A stretch of DNA of 30,531 bases. It comes from Candidatus Eiseniibacteriota bacterium. GTDB lineage: Bacteria > Orphanbacterota > Orphanbacteria > Orphanbacterales > Orphanbacteraceae. The position numbers were made by a program, and so were the translations under genes. The notes below the pieces were generated by a model that did no database searches, was not told the origin of the DNA, and saw nothing but the letters and a program-made list of their open reading frames with translations. The stretch lies in assembly GCA_029262235.1 (NCBI GenBank), contig JAJCZU010000011.1, forward strand, positions 1 through 30,531, written 5' to 3'. Positions within the stretch are counted from its first letter, which is position 1, and each line of letters opens with the position of its first letter. Below are positions 3,862-30,531 of this stretch, piece by piece.

Positions 3862-4502
3862 CGGGATTCGGACCAGCGGAAATCATTCTCGTCCTCGGCT
3901 CGTATCTGATCGGGGCCATCCCGTTCGCGTATATCGTGACGAAGCTCTTCATGGGCGTCGACATCCGCACGGTGGGCTCGAAGAACGTCGGCTTCACGAA
4001 CGTCTATCGCACCGCGGGCCCCGGCCCCGGCGTATTGGTCCTGATCGGCGACATCGGAAAAGGCGCGGCGGCCGTGTGGCTCGCAAGGCGCATGGGGGGC
4101 GCCGACTGGGTGCTCGTGATGGCCGGCCTGCTGGCGGTCATCGGGCATTCGTGGACCGTGTTCCTGAGCTTCCATGGCGGCAAGGGAGTCGCCACCGCAT
4201 GCGGCGTGCTCTTCTCGCTGATGCCGTACGCGGGCCTCGTGTGCCTGGCCGTCTTTCTCGTGGCCCTGGCCTTCTCGCGCATGGTTTCGCTCGGTTCGAT
4301 CGCGGCGGCCGCATCGCTGCCCCTCATCTATCTCGCGCTTTCCTTCATACAGGGGCTCCCCGTGCGACCTGCGTTTCTGACATTCTGCGTGGTCGTGTCC
4401 ACGCTCGTACTCCTTCGGCACCGCGCCAACATCGCGCGCATTCTCTCGGGCAATGAGAACAAGTTCGATTTCAAGCCGGAGCGGGGAGGGGGCAAGTCGT
4501 GA
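3858..4502 (+). CDS. plsY: Acyl-phosphate:glycerol-3-phosphate acyltransferase PlsY
   Basis: PlsY is an integral inner-membrane enzyme that transfers an acyl group from acyl-phosphate to sn-glycerol-3-phosphate, giving lysophosphatidate, the first step of phospholipid synthesis. The 214-residue protein shows the three family motifs. They are SKNVGFTNVYR (motif 1, about residues 40-50), HSWTVFLSFHGGKGVAT (motif 2, glycine-rich phosphate site) and RHRANIARILSGNE near the C-terminus. Several hydrophobic segments alternate between them, as expected for a five- to seven-helix protein. It overlaps der upstream by ATGA, and gpsA starts (GTG) inside its last codons. The adjacent gpsA makes the enzyme's substrate, so the order is metabolically coherent. 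Confidence 0.96.
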   Translation: MTGFGPAEIILVLGSYLIGAIPFAYIVTKLFMGVDIRTVGSKNVGFTNVYRTAGPGPGVLVLIGDIGKGAAAVWLARRMGGADWVLVMAGLLAVIGHSWTVFLSFHGGKGVATACGVLFSLMPYAGLVCLAVFLVALAFSRMVSLGSIAAAASLPLIYLALSFIQGLPVRPAFLTFCVVVSTLVLLRHRANIARILSGNENKFDFKPERGGGKS

Positions 4503-5509
4503 AGGTTTGCGTTCTCGGCGCCGGCAGCTGGGGCACGGCGCTCGCGCTCGTACTGCACGGGCGGGGCGAAGACGTGACGCTCTGGTCGCGCACCCAGGGT
4601 AAGCTCGACGGCATTCGCACCGCCGGCGAGAACCGTACGTTCCTGCCCGGCGTCGCCGTACCGCGTGACCTGAAACTCACCTGCGATCTCGCGGAAGCCA
4701 CCGCGAATGCCGAAGCCGTCGTCTTCTCCGTGCCGTCACGCGCCACCGCGCCCCTCGCAAAAGAAGTGGCCGCCCAAATGGCCGCCCTCGCGCCAAAGCC
4801 GCGCGCGCCGCTCGTCGTACTCACCGCGAAAGGCTTCGAACCCGAATCGAAGCGCCGGCTCTCCGAAGCCGTAAGCGATTCGCTCCCGCGCGAACGTGTG
4901 GCCGTGCTCGCCGGTCCGAGCCACGCCGAAGAAGTCGCGCGCCGTGTACCGACAACTGTTGTGGCCGCGAGCTACGAACAGAGCGCGGCCGAAGAAACAC
5001 AGCACCTCTTTTCGACCGACCGTTTCCGCGTTTACACGAACCACGATATCGTCGGCGTCGAAACCGCCACCGCGCTCAAGAACATCATCGCTCTCGCCGC
5101 CGGAATCTGCGACGGACTCGGCTTCGGCGATAACTCCAAAGGCGCGCTTCTTACACGCGGCCTTGCGGAAATGTCACGCCTCGGTGTCGCGCTCGGCGGC
5201 GACCCCGCCACGTTCGCGGGACTCGCCGGCATGGGCGACCTGATCACGACATGCATCAGCACGCACAGCCGCAATCGCAGCTTCGGCGAAGCCATCGGCC
5301 GCGGCAGGTCGGCAGAGGACGCCGAACGCGCTTCCGTCATGGTCGTCGAAGGCGTCGGCACGACGAAGATCGCCGCCGAACTCGCGCGCGAACACGATAT
5401 TGAAATGCCCATAACGTTTGAGGTCGAGAGCGTTCTCTTCCACGGGAAGAAACCGATGGACGCCATGGCGGATCTCATGACCCGCGACCTCAAAGCAGAA
5501 GTCTGGTAG
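4499..5509 (+). CDS. gpsA: Glycerol-3-phosphate dehydrogenase [NAD(P)+]
   Basis: GpsA reduces dihydroxyacetone phosphate to sn-glycerol-3-phosphate in the cytoplasm, feeding PlsY. The protein has 336 residues, standard length. The N-terminal Rossmann motif is VLGAGSWGTALA. The catalytic-lysine segment TALKNIIALAAG and the substrate segment GFGDNSKGALLTRGLAEM are intact, as is the C-terminal helical domain with GMGDLITTC. The GTG start overlaps the plsY stop by four bases, indicating translational coupling. A MerR-like regulator follows after a very short gap. Confidence 0.97.
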   Translation: MKVCVLGAGSWGTALALVLHGRGEDVTLWSRTQGKLDGIRTAGENRTFLPGVAVPRDLKLTCDLAEATANAEAVVFSVPSRATAPLAKEVAAQMAALAPKPRAPLVVLTAKGFEPESKRRLSEAVSDSLPRERVAVLAGPSHAEEVARRVPTTVVAASYEQSAAEETQHLFSTDRFRVYTNHDIVGVETATALKNIIALAAGICDGLGFGDNSKGALLTRGLAEMSRLGVALGGDPATFAGLAGMGDLITTCISTHSRNRSFGEAIGRGRSAEDAERASVMVVEGVGTTKIAAELAREHDIEMPITFEVESVLFHGKKPMDAMADLMTRDLKAEVW

Positions 5510-5533
5510 ATGACAATGGAAGGGAGAAGCCGT

Positions 5534-5884
5534 ATGAAACGAAAGCCCCCCGCAAAGGTCTATTACTCCATCACCGAGATCGCGGATCAGACCGACGTCA
5601 AACCGCACGTCCTTCGCTACTGGGAGTCCGAATTCGGATGCCTGTCGCCGAAGAAGAACCGCGCCGGGAATCGTGTATATCAGGAGAAGGACATCAAGAT
5701 GGTCCGTCTCATCAAAGACCTTCTTTATGACGAGGGCTACACGATCGCCGGCGCGAAGAAGAAGCTGAACCGCAAAGGCGTGCTCGAAGACGCCACGCTC
5801 TTCGCCGTGCAGGACGAATCCGATCTCATCCGCGCGATCAAAGGCGACCTCGAGGACCTCCTGCGGACATTGCCGGAGGGGTAG
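5534..5884 (+). CDS. MerR-family transcriptional regulator
   Basis: This is a small DNA-binding protein of 116 residues from ATG 5534. That start is preceded by AGGGAGAAG; an in-frame ATG at 5510 right after the gpsA stop is less likely. The N-terminal winged-helix HTH has the typical MerR order: YSITEIADQTDVKPHVLRYW, then the wing PKKNRAGNRVYQEKD, then MVRLIKDLLYDEGYTIAGAKKKL. The C-terminal part is short and acidic, with no obvious metal- or drug-binding cysteines. It resembles the MerR-like genes often found beside fatty-acid and phospholipid genes. Its target is unknown; autoregulation of this operon is plausible. The sequence after its stop is non-coding. Confidence 0.9.
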   Translation: MKRKPPAKVYYSITEIADQTDVKPHVLRYWESEFGCLSPKKNRAGNRVYQEKDIKMVRLIKDLLYDEGYTIAGAKKKLNRKGVLEDATLFAVQDESDLIRAIKGDLEDLLRTLPEG

Positions 5885-5891
5885 TGTTGGT

Positions 5892-6020
5892 GCGGCGGGT
5901 CGGGCAGATCTCCTCGCCCACGCCCAGTCGGGCCGGCTGACAAGAATAACGAAACGAGTGCGCCGTACCCCCGGCCCTCCAATGGGGCTCGGGACTGCGG
6001 GGATCCGTCCGTCCCGCCGC
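5892..6020 (+). repeat. Structured dispersed element, copy A
   Basis: This is one of three copies of a roughly 130-bp element. The left arm at 5892-5910 (GCGGCGGGTCGGGCAGATC) pairs with the right arm at 6002-6020 over 16 of 19 positions plus a G-U. An internal stem GGGCCGG (5930-5936) pairs with CCGGCCC (5971-5977). The conserved core CTCCAATGGGGCTC is at 5977-5990. The arm sequence differs completely from copies B and C, but the pairing is kept. Confidence 0.75.
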
Positions 6021-6064
6021 TCACTCCACCCCTCTTTTGAGCGAGAGGAAAAAGGAGGGGGGCA

Positions 6065-6260
6065 AGAGAGGGAGAAGAGCGGATAAGAAGGAGCGGATCT
6101 GACCAGTGCCGCTCCCTGCGCACCTGCTCTCCGTCTTCATCCCTGCACGACCTTCGTTCGTATTTCGACCAGCTTCCCGACCTTCTGCCACCGCTCCCGC
6201 ATCTCTGCTTCTGCCTTCTCCGTTCCCTCTTCCTTCTTATCCCTTCTTTTCCCTTCCTAT
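6065..6260. repeat. Purine/pyrimidine inverted repeat between copies A and B
   Basis: A purine-rich tract around 6065-6100 is imperfectly complementary to a pyrimidine-rich tract around 6222-6260. It includes a perfect 11-bp match, GGATAAGAAGG (6081-6091) against CCTTCTTATCC (6232-6242). It is nested between the inverted element copies A and B, so 5892-6428 as a whole is one large compound inverted repeat. I see no gene in it. Confidence 0.6.
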
Positions 6261-6296
6261 TCCTCTCCCCATTCTTCCCTTCGGGGCGGGGGTTGA

Positions 6297-6428
6297 GGGC
6301 GGTGAGGGAGGTGGATCCCCGCAACCTGAGCCCCATTGGAGGACCCGGGGTACGGCGCCCTCGCTTCACAACTCATGACCCAGGGTCCGACAGGGCGAAG
6401 GTGAGGAGATTCACCTCCCTCATCGCCC
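6297..6428 (-). repeat. Structured dispersed element, copy B (reversed)
   Basis: The same element as copy A on the opposite strand. In element orientation the left arm is GGGCGATGAGGGAGGTG and the right arm CACCTCCCTCACCGCCC, pairing at all but one position (an A-C apposition). The arms lie at 6412-6428 and 6297-6313. The internal stem GGACCC/GGGTCC corresponds to 6383-6388 and 6341-6346. The core lies at 6328-6341. It ends about 24 bases before the tRNA-Pro promoter. Confidence 0.78.
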
Positions 6429-6502: not shown

Positions 6503-6579
6503 CGGGGCGTGGCGCAGCCTGGTAGCGCACTTGTATGGGGTACAAGGGGTCGCTGGTTCGAATCCAGTCGCCCCGACCA
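6503..6579 (+). tRNA. tRNA-Pro (anticodon GGG)
   Basis: This is a complete 77-base cloverleaf with acceptor CGGGGCG/CGCCCCG, D arm GCGC/GCGC and anticodon stem CTTGT/ACAAG. The loop ATGGGGT gives GGG. The T arm is CTGG-TTCGAAT-CCAG and CCA is encoded. It reads proline CCC and CCU. A second proline tRNA (CGG) with near-identical acceptor and D arms lies at 9345-9421. Confidence 0.94.
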
Positions 6580-11119: not shown

Positions 11120-11986
11120 ATGAAAAGCCCCGAATCGAGGCGGCCGTACGGTTTCGGAGCGGGCGCCGACGCATCGGAAACCGAAGCACTTCGCGTCTAC
11201 CTCGACGACATCGGGAAGATTCCGCGCCTTACGCCCGATGAAGAGAAGGAACTCGCCGACCGGATCCAGGCCGGCGATCAGGAAGCGCGCCGCACGCTCA
11301 TCATCGCCAATCTCCGCCTCGTTGTCACGATCGCCAAGCAGTTTCGAAACCAGGGTATCCCGTTTCTCGACCTGATCGAAGAAGGGAACCTGGGCGTGAT
11401 CCGCGCCGCGGACCGTTTTCTCTCTTCCAAAGGCGTGCGCTTCAGCACGTACGCCGCGTGGTGGATTCGCCAGGGAATCCTGCGCATCCTCGCCAGCCGC
11501 GGCCGCATGATTCACATTCCGATCTACGTCGTGCAGCTCGTGACCCGCTTTCGCAAAGCCGAACGCAAACTGCGCGCCGCACTCGGGCGCGAGCCGACCA
11601 CCGACGAGCTTGCGAAAGAACTCGATCTCTCCCGCAAGAAGTGCCAGATGGCACGGAAGCTTCTCGAGAACGTGCAAAGCCTCGACTCGATGGCGAGCCT
11701 CGACACCGTGGACCAGATCGTGCGCGAATCGACAGACGTGCGCGTCCCGAGCGGCGCGCGCCTCGTGGAACTGCAGCTCGAACACGAACGTCTCGATCGC
11801 CTGCTGCAGCGCCTGACAGAACGCGAGGAAATGATCCTGCGCGTTCGGTTCGGATTCGACGATGACGAGCCGCATTCTCTCGCGGAAACCGGGCGTCAGC
11901 TCGGGCTCAGCCGCGAGCGGATCAGGCAGATCGAAGCACACGCACTGGGGAAACTCAGGCGTCTGTTCGATGAAGGCGGGGAGTAG
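11120..11986 (+). CDS. Sigma-70 family RNA polymerase sigma factor (RpoD/RpoS-like, group 2)
   Basis: This is a 288-residue primary-like sigma factor without region 1.1. Region 1.2 reads ALRVYLDDIGKIPRLTPDEE, near residues 25-44. Region 2 is NLRLVVTIAKQFRNQG, then DLIEEGNLGVIRAADRF and FSTYAAWWIRQGI, which contact the -10 element. Region 3 includes RMIHIPIYVVQLVTRFRK and a REPTTDELAKEL helix. Region 4 is LTEREEMILRVRFGFDDDEPHSLAETG plus the -35 reader LGLSRERIRQIEAHALGKL. The short N-terminus suggests an alternative, stress- or stationary-phase-type factor, not the housekeeping RpoD. The neighbouring surE and pcm are classically stationary-phase genes, but that link is only suggestive. Confidence 0.93.
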   Translation: MKSPESRRPYGFGAGADASETEALRVYLDDIGKIPRLTPDEEKELADRIQAGDQEARRTLIIANLRLVVTIAKQFRNQGIPFLDLIEEGNLGVIRAADRFLSSKGVRFSTYAAWWIRQGILRILASRGRMIHIPIYVVQLVTRFRKAERKLRAALGREPTTDELAKELDLSRKKCQMARKLLENVQSLDSMASLDTVDQIVRESTDVRVPSGARLVELQLEHERLDRLLQRLTEREEMILRVRFGFDDDEPHSLAETGRQLGLSRERIRQIEAHALGKLRRLFDEGGE

Positions 11987-12008: not shown

Positions 12009-12143
12009 GGGAGACCGGGGTGTCGGGGCTCTCCTCGCTTCGCCCTGTCGGACCCTGGATCATCGAAGTTGAGAAGACCGCGCCGTGCCCCGGGTCCTCC
12101 AATGGGGCTCAGGCTGCGGGGAGCCCCGACACCTTGATCTCCC
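12009..12143 (+). repeat. Structured dispersed element, copy C
   Basis: The arms are GGTGTCGGGGCTC (12019-12031) and GAGCCCCGACACC (12121-12133), a perfect 13-bp inverted repeat that continues outward with GGGAGA (12009-12014) and TCTCCC (12138-12143). The internal stem is GGACCC (12050-12055) with GGGTCC (12092-12097), and the core CTCCAATGGGGCTC lies at 12097-12110. The stretch 12144-12286 up to apt is GC-rich and shows nothing else I can name. Confidence 0.8.
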
Positions 12144-12286: not shown

Positions 12287-12811
12287 ATGACTGCACTCAC
12301 ACGCTTCATTCGTGACGTCCCCGACTTTCCGAAACCGGGAATCACGTTCAAGGACATTACGACGCTGATCGGCGACCCGGCGGCGTTCGCGCAATCGATC
12401 CAAGAACTCTCGGCGCCGTTCAGAACGGAGCGCATCGACAAGATCGTGTGCATCGAGTCGCGCGGCTTTCTGTTCGGGACACCGATCGCGCTCGAACTGA
12501 ACGCGGGAATCGTGCCGCTCCGAAAACCCGGCAAGCTGCCGTACGAAACGATCCGGCACGAGTACGAGCTGGAGTACGGAACCGACGCGCTCGAGATGCA
12601 CGTCGATGCGATCGAGAAGGGCGACCGCGTCCTGATCGTCGACGACCTGCTCGCGACCGGGGGAACCGCCGAGGCGGCCGCGGCGCTCGTCACGAAGATG
12701 GGCGGAATTGTGGAGTCGTTCGTGTTCCTGATCGAGCTTTCGTTCCTGAACGGCCGCTCGAAACTCGGGGGCCACAAGGTTCACTGCCTGATCGATTACG
12801 ACGGAGAGTAA
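12287..12811 (+). CDS. apt: Adenine phosphoribosyltransferase
   Basis: Apt converts adenine and PRPP to AMP in purine salvage. The protein has 174 residues, normal length. It starts MTALTRFIRDVPDFPKPGI, a typical Apt N-terminus, followed by FKDITTLI. The segment IVCIESRGFLFGTPIA and the PRPP-binding loop VLIVDDLLATGGTAEA are intact. RKPGKLPYE is the family's base-binding region. ATG 12287 is supported by GGAGG at 12277-12281; the frame runs further upstream through the repeat element but no better start exists. It is transcribed alone and converges on the reverse-strand gene ending at 12860. Confidence 0.97.
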   Translation: MTALTRFIRDVPDFPKPGITFKDITTLIGDPAAFAQSIQELSAPFRTERIDKIVCIESRGFLFGTPIALELNAGIVPLRKPGKLPYETIRHEYELEYGTDALEMHVDAIEKGDRVLIVDDLLATGGTAEAAAALVTKMGGIVESFVFLIELSFLNGRSKLGGHKVHCLIDYDGE

Positions 12812-14339: not shown

Positions 14340-14450
14340 GAACACGGCCCTCTCAAGAAGACATGGTTTACCGCGAGGCCAAGAGGGTTTATCGTGGAAA
14401 GTCGTAGCCAGTGCCGTGGCCAACGGTACTCAGAAATCCGTAACTCCTTT

Positions 14451-14490
14451 AGCCCCCGTAGCTCAGGTGGATAGAGCACCGGTTTCCTAA
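14451..14490 (+). repeat. 40-bp direct repeat = 5' half of tRNA-Arg(CCT), left copy
   Basis: These 40 bases are identical to 21637-21676, the base before tRNA-Arg(CCT) plus its 5' half. The match breaks exactly after the anticodon loop (TTCCTAA), and the sequence beyond cannot complete a cloverleaf. This is therefore a tRNA fragment and a candidate att site, not a functional tRNA. With its twin it brackets a segment of about 7.1 kb. Confidence 0.85.
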
Positions 14491-14802: not shown

Positions 14803-17800
14803 ATGATGGCCGGTTCTTCACGCCTGACGAGAATCATCGCTTTCACATTCCTGTTCACATTTCTTGCGACCAACGCCAAGGCTCAGCAGGCTCCGGGTTC
14901 ACTATCGGCAAAGAAGCCGAATCTGCCGATTGCGGGCTCTCTCTTCCAGCTCCTAGAGATCCGGGAAGCTTCCGGAAAAGTTGAGGCAGCGTCGTTCGCC
15001 TCTGTTCGTGGAATGGAAGTCCTCGATGATCGCGTCGCCGTGACCATCCGTTCAGCCCCCGGCAAAACCACACACACAATTCGGGATCAACAGTTGCTCT
15101 CTCTCGGCGCATCCCTGGGTTCTCGCTCTGAGCACTCCGTAGATATGATGATACCTATCGGTTCACTTCGTGCTCTAAGTACAGTTCCTGGCGTATTCTT
15201 CACAGAGCCTAGGCAGGAGCCTGTTCTCGCAGCTTCTCGTGAGGGAGTTGTTGTGAGCGAGGGCGTGGGGTTGATAGGCGCGAGCAACTACCACTCCGAA
15301 TTCTATTTCGGCAGCGACATCTATGGCCACCGGGTTAAGGTTGCGGTTGTAGACGGGGGATTTCTGGGGTTGTCCGCAGCTATCTCGGCAGGAGAGTTAC
15401 CACCTGATTCGAAGACCTACGTAGTAGGCGGTGGGAGTATCGAATCTGGCACTGATCATGGAATAGCTGTCGCGGAGGCTCTGATCGATGTCGCCCCACT
15501 CGTAGACCTTTATCTTATTAAAGTCACGTCCGACACGGATCTCTCGGCAGCGGTTGACCTCTGCATTTCCCTTGATATTGAAGTAATGAACGTGTCACTC
15601 GGGTACACGGGTCACCCGGGCGATGGAACCGGCAGTTTAGCATCCTACGTAACCAATGCGTATGAGAATGGGATTCTCTGGATTAACTCTGCCGGCAACA
15701 GCGCGAAGAAACATTACTACGGAAAATTCTCGGATAACGACGCGGACGGTTACCACAACTACCTGCAATCAGATGAGCTTCTCCCCATCTGGATCGAGGC
15801 CGGTGTTCCGCTTACCGTTGCTCTCACGTGGCGCGCTTGGCCGGCCACATACGATGACTATGATCTACACCTCCTAGACTTTTCCCAGAACCTGGTTGCT
15901 CAGTCTACAACGGCTCAGTCTACCTACTTCCTGGAACCTAAGGAAATGCTGATATACACGCCAACATACACAGGCGTCCACTGGGTCGTGATCGAAGAAT
16001 GGTCATCTTCGGTGGATCATCTATTCGATATCTTCATCACCTCAGGAGAGGTTCAGCAATACGGGGGTGCCAATCGGAGTATCCTCTCGCCCGCCGATGC
16101 AATTCATGCGGTCGCTGTTGGTGCCATCGATAGAGAAGACTGGACTACTGGCCCCCCCGAAGACTTTAGCTCCAAAGGTCCGACAACTGATGGCCGAATC
16201 AAGCCGGACATCTCAGGACCTGATAACTGCAATAGTCTAACTTACGGACACTGGCCCGGAACCTCAGCTTCGTCGCCCCACGTAGCGGGCGCAGCGGCAT
16301 TGCTGAAGTCGGTCTATCCCCAGTGCACTGTCGATGAATTGCGAACCAAGCTGCTTAGCTCGACCATTGATATGGGTGTTCAGGGCATGGACCACGAATA
16401 CGGTTACGGGCGCCTTGTTCTGCCCGAGATCTCTACAGGTCAGCTGACTGCTTTCAGCGCAGTCGCTGGAGACGAATCGGTAAGCCTTTCGTGGACAAAC
16501 CCAACTGACATCGATTTTCAGTCGACGCTCATTCGCTACAGCTATGTGGGCTATCCGGAGAACCCGATCGACGGAGTTCCCATCGAGAACGGCAATAACG
16601 GCTTCTTCTTCGGTAATCCCGGGGAGGTTGATGGTGGCACGCACACTGGCTTAGCAAGCAGCGCTCCGATTTACTATTCGGCATTCGCAACGAATGGTCT
16701 CACTTTTTCTCCCCCAAAGACGACGTCTGCCACGCCTTTCGATGCAACTGCGCCTGCCAACGTAACGGCGTTAAGTGTATTGGGGAGCGACGGCTCGATC
16801 AATATCACGTGGACGAATCCGTCGACTCCTGACATCGCCGGTACACTCGTTCGTTACTCGACCTCTGCTGCGCCGAGCGGCCCTACGGCGGGAACAGCCG
16901 TCCCCAACGGCAACAACGGCTTCTTTGTGGGAGGGCCTGGCACCGCAGGCAGCTTCACGCACAACGGGCTAACGAACGGCACGAAATACTACTATTCGGC
17001 CTTCGCGTATGACGAAGTCCCCAACTACTCATCAGGTGCGAGCGCTTCGGGTACGCCCGCGGACGGTGCTGCTCCTGCCAGCGTTAGCGGGTTCAACGCA
17101 TTCCGTAGCGACGGCTCGCTCAACCTCACGTGGACGAATCCCTCTACCTCAGATTTCGCCGGAACACTTGTTCGGTACTCGACCTCTACCGCGCCGAGTA
17201 GCCCGACCGCGGGAAAGGTTGTACCCAATGGCAACAATGGCCTCTTCGCGGGAGGTCCTGGCACTGCGGGCAACTTCACGCACAGCGGGCTCACGAACGG
17301 AACGACATACTATTATTCGGCTTTCGCATACGACGAAGTGCCCAACTACGCCTCGCATACGAGCGCTTCGGGTACGCCAGCAGACCTAGCTGCCCCGGCT
17401 GGCCCATCCGGGCTGACCGCATCCGCGGGGAACGGCGAAGCCACGCTTTCGTGGACGAATCCGGCGGACGCTGATTTCTCGGGAACTCTGATCCGATACT
17501 CGACGAGCGCGTTCCCGTCGGGACCGACGGATGGAACGGCAGTGCCGAACGGTTCGAACGGGGTCATCTCGGATTCTCCGGGCAGCAAGGGGAACTTCAA
17601 CCACACGGGGCTCACGAACGGCACGACGTATTACTATGCGGCGTTCGCGTTCGACGAGGTCCCGAACTACAGCGCGGCCGTAACAACGACGGTTAACCCG
17701 GGGGACACGCAGGCGCCTGCTGCGGTGACATCGTTCACGAGTTCGGCGGGTGATGAGCAGGTGTCCCTCAACTGGCAGAACCCGGCAACCGGCGACTTCA

Positions 17801-19641
17801 CGAAGACGGTCGTTCGCTATTCGACTTCGGCTTTCCCGGCGAACGCGCAGGATGGAACCGGAGTCGACAACGGATCAGGTGGCGTCTTCTCGGCATCACC
17901 GGGTTCGAAAGGTTCGTTCGAGCACACCGCGCTCACGAACGGGCAGACTTACTTCTATGCCGCGTTCGCGAGCGACGCCGCGAACAACTACGCCGCGGCC
18001 ACGACAACATCCGCGATGCCGGCGGACGTGAGTTCACCGGCCGCAGTCAGCGGATTCTCCGTTGCTGCGAGCGACGGGCAGGCTGCGATCTCATGGACGA
18101 ACCCGAACGACGGCGACTTCGAGTCGACGCTTCTGCGCTACTCGACGACATCGGCGCCATCAGGTCCGACCGACGGAGCAGCAGCACCGAACGGCAGCTC
18201 CGGGGAGTTCGCGGGAAGCCCCGGGTCACCCGGATCGTTCACGCACACGGGACTCACGAACGGCACGACCTACTTCTACGCCGCGTTCGCCCACGATGAA
18301 GTACCGAACTACGCGGCAGCGGTCACGGGAAGTGGAACACCGCAGGACGTCTCGGCGCCGTCGGCTGTCGCAAGCCTGACCGCCGAGGGGGGAGAGGGCG
18401 AGATCACGATCTCGTGGACGCAGCCGAATGCCGGCGATCTTGCGGGCACGGTTCTGCGTTACTCAACATCAGGAGCCGTGAGCGCGATCACCGATGGCAC
18501 CGCTGTACCGAACGGCGCGTCGGGCCTGTTCACCGAGGGGTCGGGGCAGGCTGTCAGCTTCACGCACACCGGCCTTGCGAACGGCGTCACTCACTTTTAT
18601 GGCGCGTTCGCGTATGACGAGGTGCCGAACTATTCGTCCGTTGCGCAGGCGTCGGCTGCGCCGGAGGACAACACCGCGCCATCGCTCGTGACGGCGATCT
18701 TCCAGAACCCGTACGCGACGGACTACCTCGATGTATATCTCGTCGCTTCGGAGGCGCTCGACGGCGGCACGATTGATGTCACTGTCGCAGACGATCCCGT
18801 CGCCATGAGCCTGAACGACGCGGACGAACATATCTGGAAGGGGGACTACACCCTGAACGGTTCGGGAGTGATGACTGTCGCCGCAACGGCAAGCGATCTT
18901 GCGGGGAACTCCTCGTCGGTCGCGGCCGCGATGAGCGCAGCCTACGTGCTTGCCGGATCGGGCGCACAGGTCGAGAGCCCGGACGGCCGGCTCATGCTCG
19001 ACATCGAAGCGGGCACGCTACGTAACGACGGCTACGTGCTGACCATCCCGCACGAAAGCGGAAGCGTGGGAGGGACGCCGGAGTTCGCCAAGAACGTACT
19101 CCAGTTTCCCGATGCCGACCTCACCTACACGCTGAGTCCCGCCGATGCGCTGCAGGGACAGCCCGCAACGCTGACGTATCGATACGCCGGGGAGAAGCTC
19201 GACGTCTCACCGGACCGTCTCTATCTGACCCGCGTTCCGGCAGGAAGCCCGCTCGCTTCGTATGTCGATCCGAGCACGGGCACCGTGTCGGCCACGATCC
19301 GCGAACTCGGCACGTACAAGCTCGCGATCGGTGCGCCGGGCACGAGCCCCGTGATCGGTCCCGGGTTCGCGCGGCTCTACCCGAGTCAGCCGAATCCGTT
19401 CAATCCCGTGACGACGATTCGCCTCGAGCTCGGCTCACCGCAGTACGCGCAGCTCGAGATCTTCTCCGTCGCCGGCGTGAGGGTTCGCACGCTCCTTGCG
19501 AAGCGCTTATTCGCGGGAGTGCACGACATCGTGTGGGACGCGACCGACGATTCCGGGGGAGATGTCGCGAGCGGAGTCTATCTCTATCGACTGACGACGG
19601 ACCGTTCCGAAGCCACGCGTCGCATGGTGTTGGTCCGATGA
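14803..19641 (+). CDS. Secreted subtilisin-like (S8) serine protease with seven tandem repeats and FlgD-like C-terminal domain
   Basis: This is an exported protease of 1612 residues. A signal peptide (FTFLFTFLATNAKAQ) is followed by a propeptide-like region and an S8 domain. The likely catalytic triad is D184 (VAVVDGGF), H219 (DHGIAVAE) and S488 (GTSASSPHVAGAAALL), with oxyanion N299 (SAGNS). Insertions separate N299 from S488. From about residue 543 come seven fibronectin-III-like repeats of 107 residues (650, 757, 864, 971, 1078 and 1185 start units 2-7), sharing LSWTNP, RYSTS and GLTNGTTYYYAAFA. After one Ig-like domain and a ZU5-like stretch, residues about 1526-1612 form a FlgD/type-IX-like tail (YPSQPNPFNPVTTI, SGVYLYRL, RRMVLVR). 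AGGAGGG precedes ATG 14803. GC content rises along the gene, being lower before about 17390. Extracellular proteolysis is likely; substrate unknown. Confidence 0.9.
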   Translation: MMAGSSRLTRIIAFTFLFTFLATNAKAQQAPGSLSAKKPNLPIAGSLFQLLEIREASGKVEAASFASVRGMEVLDDRVAVTIRSAPGKTTHTIRDQQLLSLGASLGSRSEHSVDMMIPIGSLRALSTVPGVFFTEPRQEPVLAASREGVVVSEGVGLIGASNYHSEFYFGSDIYGHRVKVAVVDGGFLGLSAAISAGELPPDSKTYVVGGGSIESGTDHGIAVAEALIDVAPLVDLYLIKVTSDTDLSAAVDLCISLDIEVMNVSLGYTGHPGDGTGSLASYVTNAYENGILWINSAGNSAKKHYYGKFSDNDADGYHNYLQSDELLPIWIEAGVPLTVALTWRAWPATYDDYDLHLLDFSQNLVAQSTTAQSTYFLEPKEMLIYTPTYTGVHWVVIEEWSSSVDHLFDIFITSGEVQQYGGANRSILSPADAIHAVAVGAIDREDWTTGPPEDFSSKGPTTDGRIKPDISGPDNCNSLTYGHWPGTSASSPHVAGAAALLKSVYPQCTVDELRTKLLSSTIDMGVQGMDHEYGYGRLVLPEISTGQLTAFSAVAGDESVSLSWTNPTDIDFQSTLIRYSYVGYPENPIDGVPIENGNNGFFFGNPGEVDGGTHTGLASSAPIYYSAFATNGLTFSPPKTTSATPFDATAPANVTALSVLGSDGSINITWTNPSTPDIAGTLVRYSTSAAPSGPTAGTAVPNGNNGFFVGGPGTAGSFTHNGLTNGTKYYYSAFAYDEVPNYSSGASASGTPADGAAPASVSGFNAFRSDGSLNLTWTNPSTSDFAGTLVRYSTSTAPSSPTAGKVVPNGNNGLFAGGPGTAGNFTHSGLTNGTTYYYSAFAYDEVPNYASHTSASGTPADLAAPAGPSGLTASAGNGEATLSWTNPADADFSGTLIRYSTSAFPSGPTDGTAVPNGSNGVISDSPGSKGNFNHTGLTNGTTYYYAAFAFDEVPNYSAAVTTTVNPGDTQAPAAVTSFTSSAGDEQVSLNWQNPATGDFTKTVVRYSTSAFPANAQDGTGVDNGSGGVFSASPGSKGSFEHTALTNGQTYFYAAFASDAANNYAAATTTSAMPADVSSPAAVSGFSVAASDGQAAISWTNPNDGDFESTLLRYSTTSAPSGPTDGAAAPNGSSGEFAGSPGSPGSFTHTGLTNGTTYFYAAFAHDEVPNYAAAVTGSGTPQDVSAPSAVASLTAEGGEGEITISWTQPNAGDLAGTVLRYSTSGAVSAITDGTAVPNGASGLFTEGSGQAVSFTHTGLANGVTHFYGAFAYDEVPNYSSVAQASAAPEDNTAPSLVTAIFQNPYATDYLDVYLVASEALDGGTIDVTVADDPVAMSLNDADEHIWKGDYTLNGSGVMTVAATASDLAGNSSSVAAAMSAAYVLAGSGAQVESPDGRLMLDIEAGTLRNDGYVLTIPHESGSVGGTPEFAKNVLQFPDADLTYTLSPADALQGQPATLTYRYAGEKLDVSPDRLYLTRVPAGSPLASYVDPSTGTVSATIRELGTYKLAIGAPGTSPVIGPGFARLYPSQPNPFNPVTTIRLELGSPQYAQLEIFSVAGVRVRTLLAKRLFAGVHDIVWDATDDSGGDVASGVYLYRLTTDRSEATRRMVLVR
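16429..18675 (+). repeat. Seven 321-bp coding tandem repeats in the subtilase
   Basis: The repeats encode 107-residue fibronectin-III-like units, in register without frameshift. Units 2-3 (16750-17391) resemble each other more and are less GC-rich. Units 4-7 (17392-18675) use GC-rich codons like the core genes. Unit 1 is the most diverged. Confidence 0.85.
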
Positions 19642-21607: not shown

Positions 21608-21636
21608 CTGCTGACACGAATTCGCATACACGATTC

Positions 21637-21676
21637 AGCCCCCGTAGCTCAGGTGGATAGAGCACCGGTTTCCTAA
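21637..21676 (+). repeat. 40-bp direct repeat = 5' half of tRNA-Arg(CCT), right copy
   Basis: Identical to 14451-14490, but here the sequence continues into a complete tRNA. The sequences upstream of the two copies are unrelated beyond one or two bases, so the repeat is bounded by the tRNA itself. Confidence 0.85.
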
Positions 21677-28787: not shown

Positions 28788-28887
28788 ATGGCGGGTCCCT
28801 GTGGCGCCTCGCCACACCCTGTCGCGCCCGGCCACCCCTGCCTCGGCAGGCTCGGCAGGGGTCCCCGTCCGGCGCGCCACCCGCCAT
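28788..28887. repeat. 100-bp complex palindrome
   Basis: ATGGCGGGT (28788-28796) pairs with ACCCGCCAT (28879-28887). Inside are GTGGCG/CGCCAC (28801-28806/28810-28815) and CCCCTGCC/GGCAGGGG (28835-28842/28854-28861). Short stretches such as CCTCGC and CCTGTCG recall the dispersed element, but the core CTCCAATGGGGCTC is missing. Confidence 0.55.

Positions 28888-30005: not shown

Positions 30006-30531
<526 letters not shown>

Follow-up and report, generated by a model that had tools for sequence, protein, structure and literature searches.

RESULTS

Hairpin elements of the window

The window, i.e., the whole stretch of 30,531 nucleotides that was analyzed, is one complete contig (C11) of the source genome and carries at its ends (positions 1 to 526 and 30006 to 30531) inverted fragments of an IS3-type transposase gene (rve domain, integrase) that are 95% complementary to one another; judged from these termini, IS copies are evidently where the contig breaks. 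Three hairpin elements are located between its genes. Copy A (5892 to 6020, plus strand) starts 7 nt 3′ of the stop codon of a MerR-family gene (5534 to 5884). Copy B (6297 to 6428, minus strand) is convergent with copy A and lies in antisense orientation approximately 74 nt upstream of a tRNA gene (6503 to 6576). Copy C (12009 to 12143, plus strand) starts 22 nt 3′ of the stop codon of a sigma-70-type gene (11120 to 11986), with a phosphoribosyltransferase gene (12287 to 12811) downstream. Elsewhere in the window, a large open reading frame (14803 to 19641) with subtilase and FlgD Ig-like domains contains 321-bp tandem repeats (16489 to 18652), and a 43-base stretch (14448 to 14490 and 21634 to 21676) matches part of the tRNA gene at 21638 with 98% identity; by its similarity, this stretch has the appearance of a partial tRNA or of what remains of an attachment site.

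The three copies, which the first-pass annotation had placed at these positions and strands, can be aligned across their interior, and the core CTCCAATGGGGCTC as well as a 5′ core are common to all of them, as that annotation had described. The family core is an imperfect hairpin, CTCCTCGCC..GCCCTGT / ATGGGGC..GGCTGCGGGG, enclosed by locus-specific outer stems. In copy C, all parts of which are given for the plus strand, the inner part of the locus-specific left outer arm, GGTGTCGGGGCTC (12019 to 12031), is complementary to that of the right outer arm, GAGCCCCGACACC (12121 to 12133). The conserved 5′ side of the inner stem P3, GCCCTGT (12042 to 12048), has ATGGGGC as its partner and forms with it a conserved tandem G-U wobble; the covarying apical stem consists of GGACCC (12050 to 12055) and GGGTCC (12092 to 12097), and the core CTCCAATGGGGCTC spans positions 12097 to 12110. 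Predicted folding of copies A, B, and C was stronger than that of all 200 dinucleotide shuffles of each, with z scores of −4.1, −5.9, and −4.2, respectively. The element is noncoding, comprises approximately 130 to 150 bp, and often has a purine-rich 3′ tail; such purine tracts follow copy A (6038 to 6102, plus strand) and copy B (6200 to 6287, minus strand, hence pyrimidine-rich on the plus strand). When the whole window was searched against Rfam with default settings, only tRNAs scored above threshold and the element had no match at the gathering score; a permissive search of the A-B region gave sub-threshold matches only.

Copy number and distribution

Copies A, B, and C are members of a dispersed family of hairpin repeats located between genes in two species of one genus. 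The first-pass annotation had counted three copies, which was an undercount: nearly 50 were found over the two species, approximately 28 in the source genome (4.47 Mb, 11 contigs) and approximately 18 in the sister species. Specifically, an exact 15-mer of the core matched 26 times in the source genome, compared to no match for the reversed control, and a covariance model, which was built on 39 copies from both species and does not require the exact 15-mer, identified 29 places in the source genome, including a weak one, as well as 18 in the sister species. Beyond the exact 15-mer, the model added only two clear copies in the source genome and one in the sister species. Note that the invariance of the 15-mer is partly a matter of construction, because most copies were collected by means of it.

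The covariance model detected no copies in five other genomes of the family, representing four genera; the searches at phylum and order level covered the same 7 genomes. When 84,980 species genomes were scanned with an exact two-part pattern, a search that diverged relatives would escape, the matches comprised the genome of the sister species, deposited under the name Gemmatimonadetes bacterium SS_bin_27, and a scatter of others. The scattered matches outside the genus have neither the core nor the arms nor the rest of the element and look like chance, as does the single match among viral contigs. The plasmids and phages searched gave no relevant match to the element. Overall, the family acts like an extragenic palindromic repeat of the ERIC/REP type whose occurrence is restricted to one genus.

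No match to the Y1/RAYT transposase family (PF01797) was found in the source genome (approximately 95.5% complete), whereas the control genomes gave matches, and reverse transcriptase (PF00078), as looked for in a retron or group II intron-like element, was likewise without a match in this genome. The first-pass annotation had offered a new ncRNA family or a hairpin repeat moved by a transposase. The hairpin repeat is borne out by copy number, intergenic position, and narrow distribution; its transposase mover was not established, there being no Y1/RAYT match, nor was the ncRNA family, there being no Rfam match.

Position relative to genes and purine tracts

According to gene positions from a simple codon-usage caller, which are rough, approximately 17 to 18 of the copies with a 5′ neighbor in the source genome follow a gene on the same strand, mostly at a distance of 9 to 90 nt, and approximately 7 to 8 do not; a tandem pair of copies is situated between divergent genes. 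A riboswitch was rejected, as the copies are mostly located 3′ and not 5′ of genes, and A and B face each other. On the 3′ side, a purine tract and a small motif resembling a hairpin often follow the element. Among 12 long purine/pyrimidine tracts taken from the window and from source-genome stretches fetched around elements, which do not represent a genome-wide rate, 8 lie 12 to 39 nt 3′ of an element, always with the purines on the strand of the element. The tract directly adjoins, at several loci, a hairpin with the appearance, by eye, of the terminator of the convergent gene. The outgroup stretches that were read contained no long purine/pyrimidine tracts.

Pairing and covariation within copies

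The outer arms have a mean length of approximately 25 bp, are rich in G+C, differ from copy to copy, and have no common ends. A proximal segment, TGTCGGCT/ACCGACA, is common to approximately one-third of the copies; the distal parts of the arms, as well as the whole arms of the remaining copies, are unrelated in sequence. Nevertheless, each arm pairs with its own partner, as had been noticed for the first three copies: over 39 copies, the mean pairing score was 13.1 for the own arm versus 4.0 for the arms of other copies, and a mean as high as that observed did not occur in 10,000 permutations. G-U pairs accounted for 5% of the arm pairs versus 17% of the cross-copy pairings.

Covariation in the stems, as looked for in a structured ncRNA, was present. 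A MAFFT alignment, imperfect in the arms, gave a covariation score of 0.233 versus 0.125 in shuffles (0 of 500), and this score fell once the partner was shifted by one to three columns. Within the element, covariation is found between columns 35 and 111 (C-G 18, U-A 16, G-C 2), columns 33 and 113 (C-G 18, G-C 9), and columns 48 and 94. The last of these is the pair of the apical stem in which the first-pass annotation had correctly seen GGGCC/GGCCC in copy A versus GGACC/GGTCC in copies B and C; over 39 copies it is G-C in 22, A-U in 15, G-U in 1, and unpaired in 1. That annotation would have been contradicted by a genome search returning only the three copies or by absence of covariation among additional ones, and neither was observed. 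P3 (GCCCTGT/ATGGGGC) is invariant save for one cell of the alignment, including its tandem G-U wobble; only its 5′ half counts as independent evidence of conservation, because the 3′ half lies within the 15-mer used for collecting the copies.

Orthologous copies in the sister species

Orthologous sites were assigned by flanking DNA, and 11 sites were compared against the 15 usable copies of the sister species. The ortholog was the best match for the 3′ arm at all 11 sites and for the 5′ arm at 8 of them; the arms are therefore locus specific and inherited. The pairing score was 16.1 within species, compared to 12.9 when arms were paired across species (Wilcoxon P = 0.0024). Where both bases of a pair had changed, 22 of 28 pair observations were still paired (each pair being counted from both species), and changes that preserved pairing were two-sided in 22 and one-sided in 8 cases. 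These arm-only counts replaced counts from full RNA folds, since alternative folds and exchanged apical modules had inflated the number of broken pairs. At one pair of sites, L012/L034, an insertion of approximately 5 nt is present in both arms, a single example of its kind. At 4 of the 11 sites (L006/L031, L008/L037, L015/L045, and L010/L100), the apical modules do not match despite matching arms, and the apical sequence of the ortholog ranks only 7th to 15th of 15; from these rankings, the mismatch is read as a probable exchange between copies.

At most of the other sister sites that were looked up, the element was present or the contig ended inside one; there has therefore been little movement since the species split. 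At site A of the sister species, the hairpin persists as a remnant, behind which lie a gene and, at the end of the contig, a pyrimidine tract; the spacer between A and B, only approximately 270 bp here, holds a gene in the sister species. This gene, in the sister stretch L119 (orthologous to approximately 3900 to 5920 of the window and beyond), appears by eye to be quinone-oxidoreductase-like and is absent between A and B here. At C3:66706, approximately 370 bp with a hairpin, a tract, and an element separate two genes that in the sister species almost abut, with no stem. At this one empty site, which was examined for a target-site duplication, the insertion boundaries are ambiguous, and the extra DNA includes the terminator-like hairpin and the tract. 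The gene pair is not preserved in the outgroups, so that the site is not polarized as gain or loss. Between the tRNA gene and the merR-like gene, two other genera have a short spacer without such a stem, and the same holds downstream of the sigma gene.

Other palindromic families

Two unrelated palindromic families, with approximately 38 and 27 places in the genome, likewise have a conserved core inside differing self-complementary arms, as judged by eye from twelve fetched copies of each, some of them near-identical duplicates. The smaller one, CGGGTCCTGTCGCGCC...GGCGCGCCACCCG, occurs at 28818 to 28886 of the window, at C8:319164-319254, and at approximately 25 more places (L176 to L187), its arms varying while staying complementary. 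The larger one, TTCTCGGATCCGC..GGCCTC...TTGGCCATTTGGCCAGG, occurs at C6:112889-112974 and approximately 37 more places (L164 to L175), with arms that differ between copies and pair within each; some of its copies neighbor the present element at a distance of at most a few hundred bases.

DISCUSSION

Origin of the matching arms

Self-matching arms at every site mean that the hairpin either is under selection or is repeatedly repaired by a copying process. Stems can be created, and their pairing restored, when replication switches templates (PMC8794818), and because such switching can give the same pattern, covariation alone is not decisive for RNA; the view of the first-pass annotation that retained complementarity is the hallmark of selected structure was too strong in this respect. 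We favor, with a probability of about 0.5, the reading that the elements are genus-restricted long extragenic palindromic repeats whose outer stems are kept largely by DNA template switching around a selected core. Most copies would have spread before the two species separated and would then have been retained mostly downstream of genes. Replication would, by switching templates across the hairpin, rewrite their outer stems into self-complementary arms, mostly at the level of DNA; the core would be under selection to be recognized by some factor, and apical modules would be swapped between copies through gene conversion. The resulting, presumably very stable hairpin at the mRNA 3′ end would be a likely side effect or a function. 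Several observations lean toward DNA templating: two-sided changes that kept pairing exceed one-sided ones, whereas a stepwise route via G-U should give the opposite; the low share of G-U in arm pairs likewise speaks for templating over stepwise compensation in RNA; and the insertion in L012/L034 is symmetric. The two unrelated families with similarly rewritten arms were also counted for the DNA-level view. The case for template switching is drawn from such patterns.

P3 and the conserved G-U pairs look like selection at the level of RNA or sequence, as template correction would tend to erase them, and the same-strand position just after stop codons suggests a role at the transcript level. Together with the strong folding of A, B, and C, the covariation in excess of all 500 shuffles, and the presence of the element at many sites in both species, this is what would be expected of a functional 3′-UTR RNA that is transcribed with the upstream gene, sets or protects the mRNA 3′ end, and covaries through selection for RNA pairing. 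We regard this explanation as possible yet clearly less probable than the favored one: roughly one-quarter to one-third of the copies, including B and the tandem pair between divergent genes, are not downstream of a same-strand gene, only approximately 28 copies are distributed among thousands of genes, the element is absent outside the genus, and G-U pairs are few in the arms. Unrelated self-complementary arms and positions past stop codons would be accounted for if the core were a mobile insert that enters the loop of preexisting hairpins such as terminators, the arms being host stems, and the similar appearance of three unrelated core families fits such a process. Nonetheless, the proximal arm segment common to approximately one-third of the copies belongs to the element itself, the corresponding spacers of other genera have no matching stem, and at the one empty sister site the genes almost abut without a stem, although gain and loss are not polarized there; the insertion of a core into host hairpins is accordingly rather improbable. 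Integron-like attC recombination sites or gene-cassette boundaries, which would recall the hairpins 3′ of genes, their orientation with the gene, and the A-B spacer that holds a gene in the sister species, are very improbable as judged by the arrangement of the copies, which are dispersed and not arrayed; the outer stem is moreover their most variable part, and their positions are largely stable between species.

In a wider reading, a genome-wide process in this lineage could give unrelated repeat cores (at least three families, approximately 90 places) locus-specific, continually re-templated stems, such that the hairpin and not the sequence would be inherited at each site and strong covariation would arise largely without RNA selection. 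This generalization is tentative, and we consider it distinctly less probable than template switching in the family itself; should the rewritten arms hold in other families, they would be a property of the genome and not of one element. Covariation is held to be the strongest evidence for functional RNA. Being locus specific in its arms, poor in G-U pairs, and strongly covarying, with one symmetric insertion, the family is a natural case for testing to what extent template switching in replication can mimic such evidence, and a caution for covariance-based discovery of ncRNAs.

Relationship to known repeats and hairpins

The family is a new one of extragenic palindromes from a poorly sampled phylum, without a known mobilizing enzyme. 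With fewer than 200 bp, no coding capacity, and dispersed copies, the element resembles ERIC and bacterial MITEs, and as an extragenic palindrome in many copies it resembles REP/REPIN sequences. It works like an extragenic palindromic repeat, lacking the conserved ends of ERIC/MITEs and the RAYT association of REPs. Specifically, the ERIC or IRU sequences of enterobacteria are intergenic imperfect palindromes of approximately 127 bp, the transcripts of which fold into long stem-loops (PMC2229807), and they share size class, imperfect palindromy, and intergenic position with the element; the first-pass annotation had rightly noted both the ERIC-like size and the dissimilar arms. ERIC is listed as bearing inverted repeats at its termini, ending in TA, and duplicating its target (PMC2229807), whereas the ends of the element are locus specific, with no common TA ends seen, and conserved A+T-rich terminal inverted repeats with 5′-TA-3′ ends are absent from it. 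REP/REPIN sequences are likewise extragenic palindromes in many copies, often in inverted pairs, and are linked to RAYT transposases (PMC3116915); unlike REPs, which comprise 20 to 40 bp (PMC3733652), the element is approximately 130 to 150 bp long, has variable arms, and resides in a genome with no Y1 transposase match. The stem-loop sequence families of bacterial genomes (PMC2267715) are also repeated, mostly intergenic, and share a predicted secondary structure; what distinguishes the element from these 92 families, taken as a group, is that its outer stems are locus specific and compensated and that its apical modules differ. A parallel in mode of working is offered by hairpins maintained by template switching (PMC8794818), with multi-base compensatory changes and perfect stems; those hairpins are described for RNA genes, whereas the element described here is an interspersed repeat family to which the same mechanism is ascribed by inference.
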